From Moorella glycerini (lineage in GTDB: Bacteria; Bacillota; DSM-521; Neomoorellales; Neomoorellaceae), in NCBI RefSeq assembly GCF_009735625.1, contig NZ_CP046244.1:1054001-1118000 (forward strand): a stretch of DNA of 64,000 nucleotides, in the 5' to 3' direction. Below, piece after piece: positions 2,674 through 34,465 of this stretch; the stretch's first letter is position 1; each line of letters starts with the position of its first letter. The position numbers and the translations under genes were made by a program. A model generated the notes under the pieces. That model did no database searches, had not been told where the DNA came from, and worked only from the letters and a program-made list of their open reading frames with translations.

Positions 2674-4578
2674 ATGGGCACCTGGCTTGCGGTTAAAGAT
2701 GTGGCCGAACTACTGGATGTAACGGAAAGAACCGTACAACGGAAGATATCAAAGAAAGAGCTGGTAGCCAAGCGGAAGGGCAAGGGGTATCTGATAGATC
2801 TATCATCTTTGCCGCCGGAGGCCCAGCTTGAATATGCCAAACGCTTTCCCGAGGCGGAGGTGGTGTTTAAGGAGCGCAGGAGCCGCAACGGGCGCGAATA
2901 TTCCCTGGCGGAAATCATGGACCTTTACGGGCAGGAGGCGGTGCAGGAAGCTCTGGAAAAGGTCAGGGTGGCGAAGGAAGCCCTGGAAGTAAAATACGAC
3001 CTGGAGCGCACGGAAAAACTGGAGCGCCTGGCGCAGCAAAACGGTATCAGCTTAACCACCCTGTACCGCTGGATGGAGGCGTACGAGGAGGACAGTTTGA
3101 TGGGTTTAATCAAGAAACCGCCCAAGAGCCGGGGCAAGCGGCATAGCTTGCCGGAGGAGGCGATCAAGTTTATTAAGGGGTTATACCTGCAGCCAATCAA
3201 ACCCCAGGGCCAGTGGGTTTATGACCGGTATAAGGAGCGGGCCAGGGAAAAAGGCTGGCCGGTCGCCAGCCGGGCCACGGTCTACCGGGTATTGCAGGAA
3301 TTGAGCGAGTCGGAGCTGGTGATGGGGCGCGAGGGACTGGAAGAGTGGCGAAAGAAAATAATGCCCAAGGCGACGCGCGATATTACAGTGCTGAAGACCT
3401 ACGAGATCCTGGTGGGCGACCATCACACCTTCGACCTGTTTGTGGCCCACGGCGGGCGGGCGGTGAGGCCGGACCTGACGGCCTGGATGGACGCGAGATC
3501 CAGGGCCATCGTCGGCTGGTGCATCAGCCTGCAGGGCAATTCGGAAACAATCTCCCTGGCGCTGCGGCACGCGATGCTGCCGAAGGAGGACCCGGAGGTC
3601 CCGTTCTGCGGCATACCGGTGCTGGTATATATCGATAACGGCAAGGACTACCGCTCCAAGCGACTTACCGGCGGGATGAAAACGGCGCGGAAAGATTATT
3701 CCCTGGAGGCGCAGGGGGTGCTGGCCAACCTGAAGGTAGAAGCCACCTACTGCGAACCGTATTCACCCTGGGCCAAGGAGATCGAGCGCTGGTTCGAGAC
3801 CTTGACCAACCAATTCACCAGGTACCTGCCTGGGTTTTGCGGCACCAAGCCGGAGGACAGGCCCCCTGGGTTCGACGAGAAGAAGCTCCTGGAACGGGGC
3901 GAGCTGCTAACCCTGCCGGAACTGGTTGTGCTTTTTGAGCAGTACCTGAAAAAATACCATACTACATACCACGCGACACTCAAAGACACACCGCTTAACG
4001 TCTACCTCTCGGTGGAGAAGGCGCGGGAAGGCGTGCCGCAGCCCGAAGCCCTGGACCTCTTGATGATGAAATACGACAATGCCGTGGTCCAGACCGACGG
4101 CATCCACCGGTTCAACCACGTTTACTGGCATGACGACCTGATTAATTTGATCAACCACAAAGTGACCATCAGGTTTGACCCCAACCGGATCGGCGAACTG
4201 TGGGTCTACTACCAGGGCGAGAAGGTCTGTGTGGCGGAAAACAAAGAGCTTTTATCCATGCACGCCAGCGAGGAAGACATCAAGAAATGGCGGCGGGTCC
4301 AGGCCCGCGCCAGAAAGGAGGTCCTGGCCCGCATCAATTCTTACGGCGTTTCTCAGGACGACCTGCGGGAGATCGTGGCCAGCACTTTCGAGGACGGCCC
4401 GGCCATCTTTACAGGCAGGTCCAGCTCTAAACCGGCTGCCGTGACAACCCTGACCGGCTTTGAAAAAGAAGCGCGGGAAGCCAAGAAAAGGCGGCGTAAG
4501 GAAGAAATCGGCGAGATGGGCCACAATTTCTTCAGGGAAAAAGGCTTAAAACTTCTCGGAGGAGGTAATCAAAGATGA
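2674..4578 (+). CDS. Mu-type DDE transposase (MuA-like)
   Basis: This 634-residue protein should catalyse strand transfer of the phage ends, both for integration and for replicative transposition. ATG 2674 follows AAGGAGGG; the longer frame start at 2629 overlaps the previous gene. Order of parts: an N-terminal winged/MerR-like DNA-binding domain (LAVKDVAELLDVTERTVQRK), a second helix-turn-helix (GISLTTLYRWMEAYEE), a third (SRATVYRVLQEL), then the rve catalytic core. The catalytic triad is visible as D249 (GDHHTFD), D321 (YIDNG) and E371 (KEIERWF), matching the DDE spacing style of MuA. A C-terminal beta-barrel region (NHKVTIRFDPNRIGELWVYY) and basic tail, where MuA contacts MuB and ClpX, follow. 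The stop overlaps the MuB-like gene by 4 bp. Confidence 0.93.
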   Translation: MGTWLAVKDVAELLDVTERTVQRKISKKELVAKRKGKGYLIDLSSLPPEAQLEYAKRFPEAEVVFKERRSRNGREYSLAEIMDLYGQEAVQEALEKVRVAKEALEVKYDLERTEKLERLAQQNGISLTTLYRWMEAYEEDSLMGLIKKPPKSRGKRHSLPEEAIKFIKGLYLQPIKPQGQWVYDRYKERAREKGWPVASRATVYRVLQELSESELVMGREGLEEWRKKIMPKATRDITVLKTYEILVGDHHTFDLFVAHGGRAVRPDLTAWMDARSRAIVGWCISLQGNSETISLALRHAMLPKEDPEVPFCGIPVLVYIDNGKDYRSKRLTGGMKTARKDYSLEAQGVLANLKVEATYCEPYSPWAKEIERWFETLTNQFTRYLPGFCGTKPEDRPPGFDEKKLLERGELLTLPELVVLFEQYLKKYHTTYHATLKDTPLNVYLSVEKAREGVPQPEALDLLMMKYDNAVVQTDGIHRFNHVYWHDDLINLINHKVTIRFDPNRIGELWVYYQGEKVCVAENKELLSMHASEEDIKKWRRVQARARKEVLARINSYGVSQDDLREIVASTFEDGPAIFTGRSSSKPAAVTTLTGFEKEAREAKKRRRKEEIGEMGHNFFREKGLKLLGGGNQR

Positions 4579-30095: not shown

Positions 30096-31631
30096 GTGGC
30101 AAATATTAGTAAGTTGTCGCTTGCGGCATTGCGTGATTGGCTATTGAGCCAGGTTCGGGAGCAAGTATTTTGGCACAACTCCAAATCTGATGGCACTGGC
30201 ACCATGGTGGCCAGTGTGATGGTCTACATCCCGCGCTTTCGTGTACCTGCAGGTATATGGGAGGGATGGCCTCCAGTCGAAATCAAGTCGCCGGGGTTCT
30301 GGTTCGATAAATATCCTTGCAGCCAGCCTGATGCAACTTCGCAGAGCCGTGGCAGCACGTCTCCCAACTCCCCCGGCCTGGTGGCCGCAGTAAGCCAGGC
30401 GGGGGTGGTACCCTGGACGGACATCAACCAGCCCAATTCCAAGATAGTTTGCAGCAACAGGAAAATCAATGGCCGTTCCTGCCACCTCATAACCTTGGAG
30501 GAAGCCAGGGCTGTCATGTTCGTGAAAGAACTCATCGGACATGTCCTGTATGGAAACAACTACTGGGGGCGGGATTACCGCGATCCTGCTTCTTGGGAGT
30601 ATTATGGAGAGCCCGACCCGGTGGTCGCTTCATATACCAAACAATATTCGCCTACCGGGTATTCTCGCGTTTTAACCGGCACTGGGCCGAACAAGTGGGC
30701 GCACAATGGTCTTGCAATCGGCGGCGCAATGGATTTTATCAGCTTCTGGCAATGGACGGATTTTGAAATTACCGATGGCCGCTACCAGGCGGTTAAGAAG
30801 GCGGCTATAAATGATGTCGATGGCATCACCGCCGCTGACACCGCCATTGTGATCGACGGGGTAGAAAAGCCGGAGTTTTGGCCTGTAAATAATGGGCTGG
30901 TCTTAATCAAGGCTGAAGGAACGAACACGGACGAATATGTGATCTATGACTCCTTCGTGGACAACGGCGATGGTACCTACACTCTCAGCGGCTGCCAGCG
31001 TGGCCAGAAGGGCACCGCTGCCAGTGCCCACGCCAACGACGCCTTGGTGCAGCAAATCACTGACTACTGCGTGATACCGGGCGGCTGGACCGCCAAGATC
31101 GCTGATGCCGGACTCGATAACACCGCCAACCCAGCCACATTTACCTACAGCGACCTGGTGTTGGGACCGGGCGGGGCCAACCCGGCAGTGAACGACGTTC
31201 TCCAGTGCCAGAACGAGCAACTAATTATTACGGCTGTCAACGGGAACAGCATCACAGTCAGTCGTGGAGCCAATGGCTCAACCGTGGCTGCCCATGCCCA
31301 GGGGATCGGCATTGCGCGTATTTCACCACAGATGACGAATGATAATGTGGCAGCTACTGGTGACTACGGCGCATACCAATTTAACAGGATCGTGAGCTTC
31401 AGGACTGAACCGGAACTGCTGGCCCTGGGCCTGCCTGCTTCTGTGTCCTCTGGCGGCTCTAGCCGTTTTGGCGATGGCTTCTGGCTGCGGGTCTATGGCC
31501 AACGTGCGGGCCTTGTTGGCGGGGACTGGGCCAATGGGTCGAATGTGGCCCGTGGTTGGGCGGTCAACTTGATCTATCCGCCGTCGTACGCGAACTTCTT
31601 CATCGCCCCCCGCGCCGCTTTGCGCCTGTAA
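30096..31631 (+). CDS. DGR-diversified receptor-binding protein (C-type-lectin fold expected)
   Basis: A 511-residue protein from GTG 30096. Residues about 40-240 resemble the FGE-sulfatase/C-type lectin scaffold used by DGR targets (GFWFDKYPCSQ, then CSNRKINGRSCHLITLEEAR). Residues about 245-430 look like an inserted module with two related beta units, each with a RG...GT/ST...AH core (GCQRGQKGTAASAH and SRGANGSTVAAHAQG). The fold resumes at FGDGFWLRVYGQ and ends in the variable repeat (residues 470-508). Seven residues differ from the template-encoded version: D477, A479, I493, Y494, Y498, F501 and F502. Position after the fibre genes suggests a tail-tip adhesin that binds host receptors. 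Confidence 0.88.
   Translation: MANISKLSLAALRDWLLSQVREQVFWHNSKSDGTGTMVASVMVYIPRFRVPAGIWEGWPPVEIKSPGFWFDKYPCSQPDATSQSRGSTSPNSPGLVAAVSQAGVVPWTDINQPNSKIVCSNRKINGRSCHLITLEEARAVMFVKELIGHVLYGNNYWGRDYRDPASWEYYGEPDPVVASYTKQYSPTGYSRVLTGTGPNKWAHNGLAIGGAMDFISFWQWTDFEITDGRYQAVKKAAINDVDGITAADTAIVIDGVEKPEFWPVNNGLVLIKAEGTNTDEYVIYDSFVDNGDGTYTLSGCQRGQKGTAASAHANDALVQQITDYCVIPGGWTAKIADAGLDNTANPATFTYSDLVLGPGGANPAVNDVLQCQNEQLIITAVNGNSITVSRGANGSTVAAHAQGIGIARISPQMTNDNVAATGDYGAYQFNRIVSFRTEPELLALGLPASVSSGGSSRFGDGFWLRVYGQRAGLVGGDWANGSNVARGWAVNLIYPPSYANFFIAPRAALRL
31501..31619 (+). repeat. DGR variable repeat (VR)
   Basis: A 119-bp copy of the template repeat at 32074-32192, ending 12 bp before the end of the target gene. 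Identity is 111/119. The eight differences (31524, 31531, 31573, 31575, 31587, 31596, 31599, 31600) all face an adenine in the template: six A-to-T, one A-to-G, one A-to-C. The last 19 bases, GC-rich and unchanged, act as the expected initiation-of-mutagenic-homing (IMH) site; identity ends at 31620. Confidence 0.96.
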
Positions 31632-31658
31632 CCTGAATCCTGAAAACTGAAATCCTGA

Positions 31659-31680
31659 TGGCCCCGCGATAGCGGGGCCA
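31659..31680. promoter_or_regulatory. Hairpin/cruciform with GATA loop downstream of VR
   Basis: TGGCCCCGC (31659-31667) pairs perfectly with GCGGGGCCA (31672-31680) around the tetraloop GATA. It lies 39 bp after the VR and past the target stop codon. In the Bordetella BPP-1 DGR and relatives, a GC-rich hairpin/cruciform with a GRNA tetraloop downstream of the IMH is needed for efficient homing; GATA fits GRNA. There is no T-run, so an ordinary terminator is less likely. Confidence 0.75.
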
Positions 31681-31708
31681 GGGCAAACTTATTTTGCAGG
31701 AGAAATTG

Positions 31709-32053
31709 ATGACTAAGAAGTTTGAGCTTGAAGAGAAATGCCGGGAGATGATGGAATTCGCTTATATGGCCCTTCGGGACATCCCGCGTGACTATCGCTA
31801 TACATTAGGGGCAGACATCCGTAATTCGGCCATGAATTTGATGCAGTTAATAGTCCGCTGCAGAAAACGCTATTACAAGAAAACCACCTTAGAGGACATG
31901 GATATCGAATTAGAAACACTTCGTTCATTCATCCGCATAGCGGCAGACACTAATGTTATTTCCAAAGGAGAATATGGTGCTTGGGCTGAAAAGCTAGACG
32001 AAATCGGTCGCTTGATTGGTGGCTGGCAGCGATCCGTTAGAAATAAGCAATAA
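31709..32053 (+). CDS. avd: DGR accessory variability determinant (Avd-like)
   Basis: A 114-residue, strongly helical, basic protein from ATG 31709 behind CAGGAGA (31697-31703); TTG 31694 overlaps the site. The motifs REMMEFAYMALRDIPRDYRY, LGADIRNSAMNLM and RCRKRYYKKTTLEDMDIELE fit the four-helix-bundle Avd/23S rRNA intervening-protein family. Avd pentamers bind the reverse transcriptase and template RNA and are required for cDNA synthesis in BPP-1. It lies between the VR gene and the template repeat, the classic order. Confidence 0.88.
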   Translation: MTKKFELEEKCREMMEFAYMALRDIPRDYRYTLGADIRNSAMNLMQLIVRCRKRYYKKTTLEDMDIELETLRSFIRIAADTNVISKGEYGAWAEKLDEIGRLIGGWQRSVRNKQ

Positions 32054-32360
32054 ACTATTAGGGCTTGGGCTGAAACGTGCGGGCCTTGTTGGCGGGAACT
32101 GGGACAATGGGTCGAATGTGGCCCGTGGTTGGGCGGTCAACTTGAACAATCCGCCGTCGAACGCGAACATCAACATCGCCCCCCGCGCCGCTCTGCCTGA
32201 AACAAGCGAGAAGGCGGCTGCTTACGGGCGGTCGTCCCAGGCACAGGCAAAGGAGCCCTGGTCCTTGTCGCGCCTGCTTTATGGCCGGCAAAAAATAAAA
32301 CACGCCAGACCCGGCTGGTAGGAAATGAAGGCCGGAATCTGGCCTGGTTGGAGGATGAAG
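32054..32360 (+). ncRNA. Template RNA region of the DGR (TR plus downstream spacer)
   Basis: From the avd stop to the reverse transcriptase start there is no credible gene. It holds the TR and a 168-bp spacer (32193-32360). In BPP-1 the RNA from the end of avd through the spacer is folded, bound by RT-Avd, and primes cDNA synthesis. The spacer here is of similar size. I infer the same role; secondary structure was not computed. The frame across it (32016-32321) lacks a ribosome site and overlaps avd. Confidence 0.6.
32074..32192 (+). repeat. DGR template repeat (TR)
   Basis: The non-coding donor copy, 20 bp after the avd stop. It contains 23 adenines; eight of them (32097, 32104, 32146, 32148, 32160, 32169, 32172, 32173) are changed in the VR, all other bases are identical. 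In the target frame most mutable positions fall in AAC/AAT codons, which can vary widely without making stop codons. Confidence 0.96.
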
Positions 32361-33416
32361 ATGAGGACTTACGATAATCTATACCCGCAAATTTACGACT
32401 TTGGAAACCTTTACGAGGCATATTTGAAGGCGCGGCGCGGGCATAGGTATGACCCGGACGTCCTCGTCTTCTCCAGCAACCGGGAGAGCGAACTGATCGA
32501 GTTGCAGAATGAGCTTATCTGGAAGACTTATCAGACGGGCCAATACCGCCGGTTTTATGTACATGACCCGAAAACCAGGCTAGTGGCCGCCCTCCCTTTT
32601 CGGGACCGCGTGCTGCACCACGCTCTGTGTAATGTTATTGAGCCGCTTTTTGAGCGGAAATATATCTATGACAGCTATGCCTGCCGGATAGGCAAGGGAA
32701 CTCACGCCGGTGCAGACCGGGTAACGGAATTTCTCAAAAAAGCTGCAAGAAAATGGCCCAAACCCTACTGCTTGAAAGCCGACATCAGCAAATACTTTCC
32801 GTCAGTGAGGCACAGCACCCTCCTGGGGATAATCAAAAGGACTATTGCTTGCGAAGATACTTTATGGCTTATCCAGGAAATCCTATCAAGCTGGGCGGAT
32901 ACAGCCGAACCGGATCCACGAGGGCTGCCCATTGGAAACCTAACCTCCCAGTTATTTGCAAATGTTTATTTGGATCAGTTGGATCACTTCATAAAAGAAG
33001 AGCTGCAAGTACCTTATTATGTTCGGTATATGGATGATTTCGTCATAATTTCTGGCGACAAGAAGGAACTGTGGCGGTTGAAGCAGGAGATAGAAGATTT
33101 TCTTGACGCCAGGCTTAGTTTAAAACTAAATGACAAAACTGGCATATTTCCTGTATCCCACGGTGTGGACTTCCTGGGGTACCGGATCTGGAAAGACCAT
33201 CGCCTGTTACGCAAGCGAAGTACTAAGAGGATTAAGCGTGCCTTAAAACACTTCCAGAAACTTTACAGCCAGGGCAAAATCGACTTCGAGAAGATCAACA
33301 CCACTGTTCAAAGCTGGTTGGGACATACAAAGCACGCAAACAGTTTTAATTTCAGAAAGAAACTCTTTGACACTTTTTCGTTCATACGGGGAAGAGGTGA
33401 TGATCATGAAACTTAA
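32361..33416 (+). CDS. DGR reverse transcriptase
   Basis: A 351-residue RT from ATG 32361, six bases after TTGGAGG; ATG 32325 and 32355 are poorer choices. It has no intron-type maturase or endonuclease domain. Motifs: LPFRDRVLHHALCN and YACRIGKGTHAG early, CLKADISKYFPSVRH (motif with first catalytic Asp), LPIGNLTSQLFANVYLDQLD (I191-G-x3-S-Q197, the DGR-type motif 4 instead of the QGxxxSP of group II introns), and YMDD at 223-226. The thumb is basic (KRSTKRIKRALKHFQ). It should copy TR RNA into cDNA with errors at adenines for transfer into the VR. Confidence 0.93.
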   Translation: MRTYDNLYPQIYDFGNLYEAYLKARRGHRYDPDVLVFSSNRESELIELQNELIWKTYQTGQYRRFYVHDPKTRLVAALPFRDRVLHHALCNVIEPLFERKYIYDSYACRIGKGTHAGADRVTEFLKKAARKWPKPYCLKADISKYFPSVRHSTLLGIIKRTIACEDTLWLIQEILSSWADTAEPDPRGLPIGNLTSQLFANVYLDQLDHFIKEELQVPYYVRYMDDFVIISGDKKELWRLKQEIEDFLDARLSLKLNDKTGIFPVSHGVDFLGYRIWKDHRLLRKRSTKRIKRALKHFQKLYSQGKIDFEKINTTVQSWLGHTKHANSFNFRKKLFDTFSFIRGRGDDHET

Positions 33417-33690
33417 AGGTTTTTGGAATGATCCAGAAGGGTTGTCTATCGGGGATATAGTTATATGGGCTACGTTGCCCCCTTGGTTATATACGGCCTA
33501 TCACTACGCTTTGGCAGCTGATTTAAGCGGGAACCAGGTTGACTTCTTTTTAACTCTAACATACCCGCTGTTAATGGTTTTGGGCGGCAAAGCTATTTCA
33601 GACCTGCCGCCGCTTAAAAGGCTGAAAATAGAGTTTCCAATCTCAGATGAAAGGGATGATCGTGGTGTCAACTCAAGCCCGAGGATATGA
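33406..33690 (+). CDS. Small two-helix membrane protein (holin-like)
   Basis: A 94-residue protein from ATG 33406 behind GAAGAGG, overlapping the RT gene by 11 bp. Two hydrophobic helices (IGDIVIWATLPPWLYTAYHY and DFFLTLTYPLLMVLGG) are followed by a charged tail. Position directly before the endolysin suggests a holin or antiholin, but no family motif is visible. Its end overlaps the amidase gene. Confidence 0.55.
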   Translation: MKLKGFWNDPEGLSIGDIVIWATLPPWLYTAYHYALAADLSGNQVDFFLTLTYPLLMVLGGKAISDLPPLKRLKIEFPISDERDDRGVNSSPRI

Positions 33691-34465
33691 ATTGAAGGAA
33701 ATGCTCCTTACTTCTGGACGCGGTGGTCGTCCAGGACGCAAAATTCAACCCAAGGCCCTGGTGATCCATTGGACAGCCAATACTAAAGCAGGAGCCGACG
33801 CGGTAGCCAACCGGAATTATTTTGAGGGGCACCCCCAAAATAAGGTTTCAGCCCACTATATTGTAGACGACCACCAAGTTGTTCAGTGCCTGCCCGAAGA
33901 CGAAATGGGATATCATGTGGGGGCTTATCGATATCAGCCGAAAGCACTGGAGTTATTGTCCTCTTACCCCAATAACTGCACCATCGGTATCGAGATTTGT
34001 GTCAACGAAGATTGCGATTTCAGGCGGACATACTGGAACACGGTGGCCCTGGCGGCTGATATTCTTCAGCGCTATGGCTGGGGTATTGACCGGCTTTGGC
34101 GGCATTATGACATTACCTGGAAAGATTGTCCGAGATTCTTTGTAAATGACGAGACCGCATGTGCATACGGCTTTACATCGGCAGCGGAGGGTTGGGAACA
34201 ATTCAAGTCTGATGTTAAAAAAGAAATGCAAGGAAAGGGGACGGATAGAATGTTCACTGACATGAGAGGGCATTGGGCCGAAAATGATGTCGAGGAAGCT
34301 GCGAAATTGGGCCTGGTGGCCGGGAAGGGGGACGGAACTTTTGGTCCTGACGATGGAATGACCAGGGCGCAAGGAACGGTGGTGAGCCTACGGGTTTACA
34401 AGAAGCTAGAGACTAAAATCATAGCGCTTGAAGAGCGCATCGCTAAATTTGAAGGGAGGGCTTAG
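33662..34465 (+). CDS. Endolysin: N-acetylmuramoyl-L-alanine amidase with SLH domain
   Basis: A zinc amidase (267 residues from GTG 33662 after AAAGGG; ATG 33647 and 33656 are alternatives) that cleaves the bond between muramic acid and the stem peptide. The amidase_2/PGRP domain has zinc ligands H36 (VIHWT), H148 (RHYD) and C156 (KDCP), like T7 lysozyme, plus VSAHYIVDD and YHVGAY. The C-terminus is a full SLH unit (FTDMRGHWAENDVEEAAKLG ... DGTFGPDDGMTRAQ). SLH domains bind pyruvylated cell-wall polymers, so this endolysin appears to use the host's S-layer anchor as its wall-binding target. A short coiled coil ends it. Confidence 0.88.
   Translation: MVSTQARGYELKEMLLTSGRGGRPGRKIQPKALVIHWTANTKAGADAVANRNYFEGHPQNKVSAHYIVDDHQVVQCLPEDEMGYHVGAYRYQPKALELLSSYPNNCTIGIEICVNEDCDFRRTYWNTVALAADILQRYGWGIDRLWRHYDITWKDCPRFFVNDETACAYGFTSAAEGWEQFKSDVKKEMQGKGTDRMFTDMRGHWAENDVEEAAKLGLVAGKGDGTFGPDDGMTRAQGTVVSLRVYKKLETKIIALEERIAKFEGRA

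Follow-up and report, generated by a model that had tools for sequence, protein, structure and literature searches.

Positions 31620-31680 of the window (the whole 64,000-nucleotide stretch of DNA analysed here) very probably represent the 3' target site of a prophage diversity-generating retroelement (DGR) that contains Avd; this site is made up of two parts: a phased array of short YTG units followed by a GC-rich hairpin with a GATA loop. Comparison of related loci shows that array and hairpin are both conserved, and that they belong to the variable repeat (VR) rather than to the template repeat (TR). The hairpin is not the whole of the signal, and the spacer that precedes it is itself a conserved phased repeat.

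A complete DGR in the window

The window locus is a complete, bona fide prophage DGR of the Avd-containing kind. Its parts follow one another in the order target gene, VR, hairpin, avd, TR, spacer RNA and reverse transcriptase (RT), the same target-avd-TR-RT gene order as is found in the BPP-1 DGR:

30096..31631, + strand: DGR target gene, 511 aa, with a variable C-terminus and the VR at its 3' end
31501..31619, + strand: variable repeat (VR), 119 bp, from the TR/VR comparison
31625..31657, + strand: phased array of five YTG units (CCTG TAA CCTG AAT CCTG AAA ACTG AAAT CCTG)
31629-31631, + strand: target gene stop codon TAA
31659..31680, + strand: hairpin with a 9 bp stem and GATA loop, putative DGR target hairpin/cruciform, from stem search, ssDNA folding and covariation
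31709..32053, + strand: avd, accessory variability determinant (PF22296, 4.9e-28; NF033474, 5.4e-29)
32074..32192, + strand: template repeat (TR), from the TR/VR comparison
32191..32344, + strand: structured spacer RNA in the TR-RT interval, Rfam RT-14 (RF02921, 53.9 bits; gathering threshold 48.1)
32325..33416, + strand: DGR reverse transcriptase with IGNLTSQ and YMDD motifs, likely start 32358

The 119 bp shared by TR and VR contain 8 mismatches, every one of them at a TR adenine, the pattern that defines a DGR. The Avd protein scores above the cut-offs of both the bAvd family PF22296 and NF033474, while the IGNLTSQ and YMDD motifs of the RT conform to the DGR-type signature (I/V/L)GxxxSQ plus YxDD (PMC3521204). 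The Rfam family RT-14, matched in the TR-RT interval, seems to correspond to the spacer RNA by which DGRs recruit RT-Avd. Adjoining the DGR, at 33647-34465, lies a gene for an Amidase_2 endolysin with a C-terminal S-layer homology domain. The source genome (G000, L001-L008) contains 12 RT matches besides the DGR RT, eight of which score identically in frames of 484 aa and probably stem from a group II intron present in several copies.

A phased array between VR and hairpin

Related loci were collected through RT searches of IMG/VR, GTDB genomes and named phages, and TR/VR pairs were located in them by script; these loci are related by kinship and fall into 41 clusters at 60% RT identity. The array first became apparent as direct repeats such as AATCTGTAATCTGTAATCTG in the VR flanks of loci that lack a hairpin. 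In the window, YTG starts at 31626, 31633, 31640, 31647 and 31655, in steps of 7, 7, 7 and 8 nt, within the 39-nt spacer between VR and hairpin, and a chain of five YTG at 7/8 steps arises in 0.01% of shuffles. The only other five-YTG chain at 7/8-nt steps in the window lies at the start of the target gene (30114-30146) and is most likely due to chance.

The same periodicity recurs across the related loci. TCTG is found 2.19 times per 60 nt 3' of the VR, as against 0.10 3' of the TR, 0.30 5' of the VR and 0.29 in shuffles. Across 103 distinct VR flanks, pairs of YTG number 177 at lag 7 (17.5 expected) and 82 at lag 8 (16.7 expected), with harmonics at lags 14/15 (91/90, versus about 15.5) and 21/22 (45/66, versus about 14). 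Chains of at least four YTG (steps of 6-9 nt) are present in 63 of these 103 flanks and in 1.8% of shuffles, and none was found in the control regions 3' of the TR or 5' of the VR. When trinucleotides were compared over 218 loci, CTG proved the strongest at lag 7/8 (281 versus 24 for other lags). Among the seven closest relatives, including the window, the five TG pairs are invariant and 18 of the 27 other columns of the array region vary.

Arrays range from two to six recognisable units, the last of which mostly stands 1-5 nt ahead of the stem, and 19 of the 41 RT clusters have a median of at least three units at strict 7/8 steps. Because the array fills the spacer, VR-hairpin distances outside the BPP-1 group cluster mostly at 31-43 nt. 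A few avd-positive groups are without an array, as are the six loci among the first 156 in which avd was not detected, these being few and distant loci. The array was not found described in the texts searched, and a text search for TCTG together with DGRs gave nothing, the sequences shown in figures being beyond its reach; the array appears to be the more novel part of the site, with priority not established.

Comparison with BPP-1 suggests what kind of element this may be. The BPP-1 IMH (GC14 plus 21 bp, with 5 mismatches to the TR) resembles the window array in being VR-specific and in lying 3' of the GC-rich VR end, with a CTG/CTG/TTG series that is not in the TR; the window array is likewise absent at the TR, and in BPP-1 the units overlap the segment of the IMH known to set directionality. 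The two differ in extent, since the array of the BPP-1 group consists only of CTG-10-CTG-7-TTG, two units 7 nt apart with one 10 nt before them, whereas the window has five units at 7-8 nt, outside the region of TR/VR identity. Since CTGTGACCACCTGNNNCTTGA is nearly invariant at the VR of the BPP-1 group and is replaced after its first bases at the TR, we infer by analogy that the array may be the general, longer form of the BPP-1 IMH segment that is specific to the VR and sets directionality.

Just 3' of the TR, most loci (L027, for example) carry a conserved CCAGAAG, which is complementary to the TCTG units 3' of the VR. The array might on this account be an RNA pairing site, its TCTG units pairing with CCAGA 3' of the TR in a spacer RNA joined to the cDNA. 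CAGA is indeed rare 3' of the VR but enriched, at 0.84 per 60 nt, 3' of the TR, and complementary 5-mers are more frequent within a locus than in permuted pairings (2.53 versus 1.87, sd 0.10). However, a same-sense control is raised too (1.92 versus 1.61), so that relatedness explains part of this excess, and the repeats of L110 and VHML do not covary with the motif in their own spacers. In the Rfam alignment, moreover, the AGA lies in an internal loop of the spacer RNA and may be conserved for its own sake. We therefore consider pairing with the spacer RNA an unlikely basis for the array.

Very unlikely is a role of the array in avd expression, as a leader or ribosome-binding region, or an origin in coding sequence, even though in most loci the array does lie between the target stop codon and avd. 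The array follows the VR and not avd: it is found behind a VR about 1.4 kb before avd (L116) and behind a VR that comes after avd (L279). Where the VR lies in mid-ORF, 3' of TR and RT, the spacing of CT peaks at 7, 8, 15, 20 and 22 nt and not at 3, 9 or 21. VRs far from avd and VRs inside genes thus led us to reject both origins. Arrays at intragenic VRs use CTT/CTC units as well. In L288-L316, where the VR lies in a gene 3' of the RT, the 7-8-nt array runs within coding sequence and a GNNA hairpin is almost never present (a GRNA hairpin was found in 1 of 28 intragenic VRs); these sites form a second class of target site.

The hairpin and its loop

The hairpin reads TGGCCCCGC-GATA-GCGGGGCCA, exactly as in the first-pass annotation, with arms at 31659-31667 and 31672-31680 forming a perfect 9 bp stem around a loop at 31668-31671. 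It begins 27 nt past the target stop codon, downstream of the gene as had been proposed, and 39 nt past the end of TR/VR identity. A first-order Markov model of the window predicts 0.35 perfect 9 bp stems around a 4-nt loop per 64 kb, and 20 sequences drawn from this model contained no example with a GRNA loop; predicted ssDNA folding energies are -13.5 kcal/mol on the + strand (z = -4.96) and -12.8 on the - strand. The Markov expectation and the folding z-score together rule out a chance hairpin, and a genome-wide repeat element is ruled out by the stem pattern, which is single-copy in the 3.56 Mb genome.

Hairpins of this kind have been described before. Guo et al. 2011 (PMC3240598) reported that BPP-1 requires a hairpin/cruciform acting as DNA to home efficiently, that it is the structure and not the sequence of the stem that counts while the loop is critical, and that GC-rich stems with GRNA loops lie 3' of the VR in further phage and prophage DGRs; the need for the hairpin was strong, not absolute, in a 2026 reconstitution in E. 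coli (PMC12875486). The window hairpin shares with BPP-1 and its phage homologues a GC-rich stem of 7-10 bp (here 7 of 9 pairs, TGGCCCCGC, are G-C) and a 4-nt GRNA loop on the sense strand, downstream of the VR. It differs in its loop, GATA versus GAAA in the BPP-1 system, and in its 39-nt spacer, filled by the five-unit array, where the published range is 4-34 (PMC3240598), although the VR-hairpin distance was called flexible by the same authors. The first-pass annotation had called such a match notable in a phage unlike BPP-1. It is not surprising, as PMC3240598 already lists, besides other prophages, two Desulfotomaculum DGRs (D. reducens and D. acetoxidans); since such hairpins had already been described, the window hairpin is one further member of a known signal and not new in itself.

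Related loci support this assignment. In 57 of a first set of 96 distinct loci, the best hairpin of the 130 nt that follow the VR carries a GRNA loop, compared with 0 of 81 3' of the TR, 0 of 49 5' of the VR and 0.7% in shuffles. In 91 of 156 loci the VR is followed by a GRNA hairpin whose stem is perfect over 6 bp or more, with the loops GATA (35), GAAA (17), GACA (12), GGTA (11), GGCA (7), GGAA (6) and GAGA (3); the list of loops from the 156 loci contains no TNYC, the antisense of GRNA. The closing pair is C-G in 90 of the 91 and GC|GC in 82, while the 91 hairpins include 37 different 6-bp stems. To assess covariation at sites chosen by loop and not by pairing, we used the 104 distinct sites at which CGRNAG stands just once in the 75 nt 3' of the VR. 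Watson-Crick pairing is seen for pairs 2 to 6 at 102, 92, 93, 91 and 95 of these (88-98%), as against 25-27% at 4,091 CGRNAG sites elsewhere in these loci and 32-82 per 104 expected from column shuffles, and G-C, C-G, T-A and A-T are all used at pairs 3 to 6. A direct compensatory case is seen in the close relative L014, in which GTCCCCGC/GCGGGGAC replaces GGCCCCGC/GCGGGGCC. From this pattern of substitution, the stem is conserved as a structure across relatives. The alignment check that had been suggested thus came out in favour of the proposed GRNA homing signal: the DGR is complete, stem pairs covary, the hairpins lie 3' of the VR and not of the TR, and the loop stays GRNA or, more broadly, GNNA. 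About 40% of relatives are without a perfect GRNA hairpin 3' of the VR, some having a mismatched stem and others a different loop or none.

Sequence variation in the loops suggests that the rule can be sharpened from GRNA to GC-GNNA-GC, which describes a class of DNA mini-hairpins of extraordinary stability, those in which a GNA or GNNA loop is closed by at least two G-C pairs (PMC4686876). The GCAA loops of the BPP-1 relatives L164 and L166 and the GCA/GTA triloops of L116, L081 and L110 fall outside GRNA, and fit GNNA and GNA, respectively, closed by G-C. Archaeal (nanoarchaeal) DGR hairpins, which lie near the VR and have loops of the same G..A class as the window but are GRA triloops within the target gene, are covered by the rule as well (PMC4372165). 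The window itself reads GC-GATA-GC, and has the loop and G-C closure of the d(GCGAAAGC) mini-hairpins of Hirao and colleagues (cited in PMC4686876), which were, unlike the DGR hairpin, studied as oligonucleotides. In Faecalibacterium and related gut phages (L152, L229, L231, L351 and L353) the array is likewise retained ahead of a GC-rich hairpin, but that hairpin has a longer loop of a different type (for example CCCACCAAA), and the group departs from the GNNA rule. The literature texts searched contained no link between GNNA mini-hairpins and DGRs.

GATA is not an RNA GNRA loop. From this and from the GNNA/GNA rule we infer that the window hairpin is a DNA hairpin on the sense strand. It is extremely unlikely that it plays no part in homing and serves instead as a transcription terminator or mRNA structure lying between the target gene and avd: it does sit between two genes, has a GC-rich stem and is predicted in RNA too, but the absence of a T-run, correctly noted earlier, and of any terminator-like site on either strand of 31400-32400 rules out an intrinsic terminator, and an mRNA structure is at odds with a loop rule that is sense-strand specific and tied to the VR, with the GATA loop itself and with the action of the BPP-1 equivalent as DNA.

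A possible mechanism for target recognition

By analogy with BPP-1, the hairpin would promote retrohoming of mutagenised cDNA into the VR, as a DNA hairpin or cruciform. As GATA with two G-C pairs belongs to the d(GC-GNNA-GC) mini-hairpin class, it is predicted to fold best on the sense DNA strand, where it would hold the target open. The array probably acts in homing as well; its five phased units between VR and hairpin would mark the VR, and not the TR, as the recipient, and so, if the likeness to the BPP-1 IMH is a guide, the array may set the direction of transfer.

How the array might be read is a matter of speculation. One possibility, to which we give only modest weight, is that it lies as a single strand beside the extruded hairpin and is bound by an Avd pentamer, with one unit per subunit. 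A single strand would be the more natural ligand because steps of 7-8 nt do not face one side of B-DNA. Structures of BPP-1 Avd have five chains per entry, alongside one RT; a single-sequence search of the PDB with the window avd returned no match. TRAP binds RNA repeats one per subunit, the same one-per-subunit fit as is proposed for the five units of the window clade, although unit numbers vary in DGR arrays. It is conceivable, though again rather doubtful, that DGR targets are bipartite in general, with a YTG array at 7-8 nt providing VR recognition and directionality and the BPP-1 IMH as its short form, the spacing pointing to ssDNA on a ring-shaped Avd pentamer and the GNNA hairpin keeping the strand open.

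These observations bear on the open question of how DGRs locate their targets and write to the VR and not to the TR. A repeat code that is common to many DGRs, absent from the TR and placed on the directionality segment of BPP-1 makes this question testable by a few base changes. Such a code would aid directed evolution with DGRs in laboratory strains, and would serve as a pattern in searches for DGR recipients.
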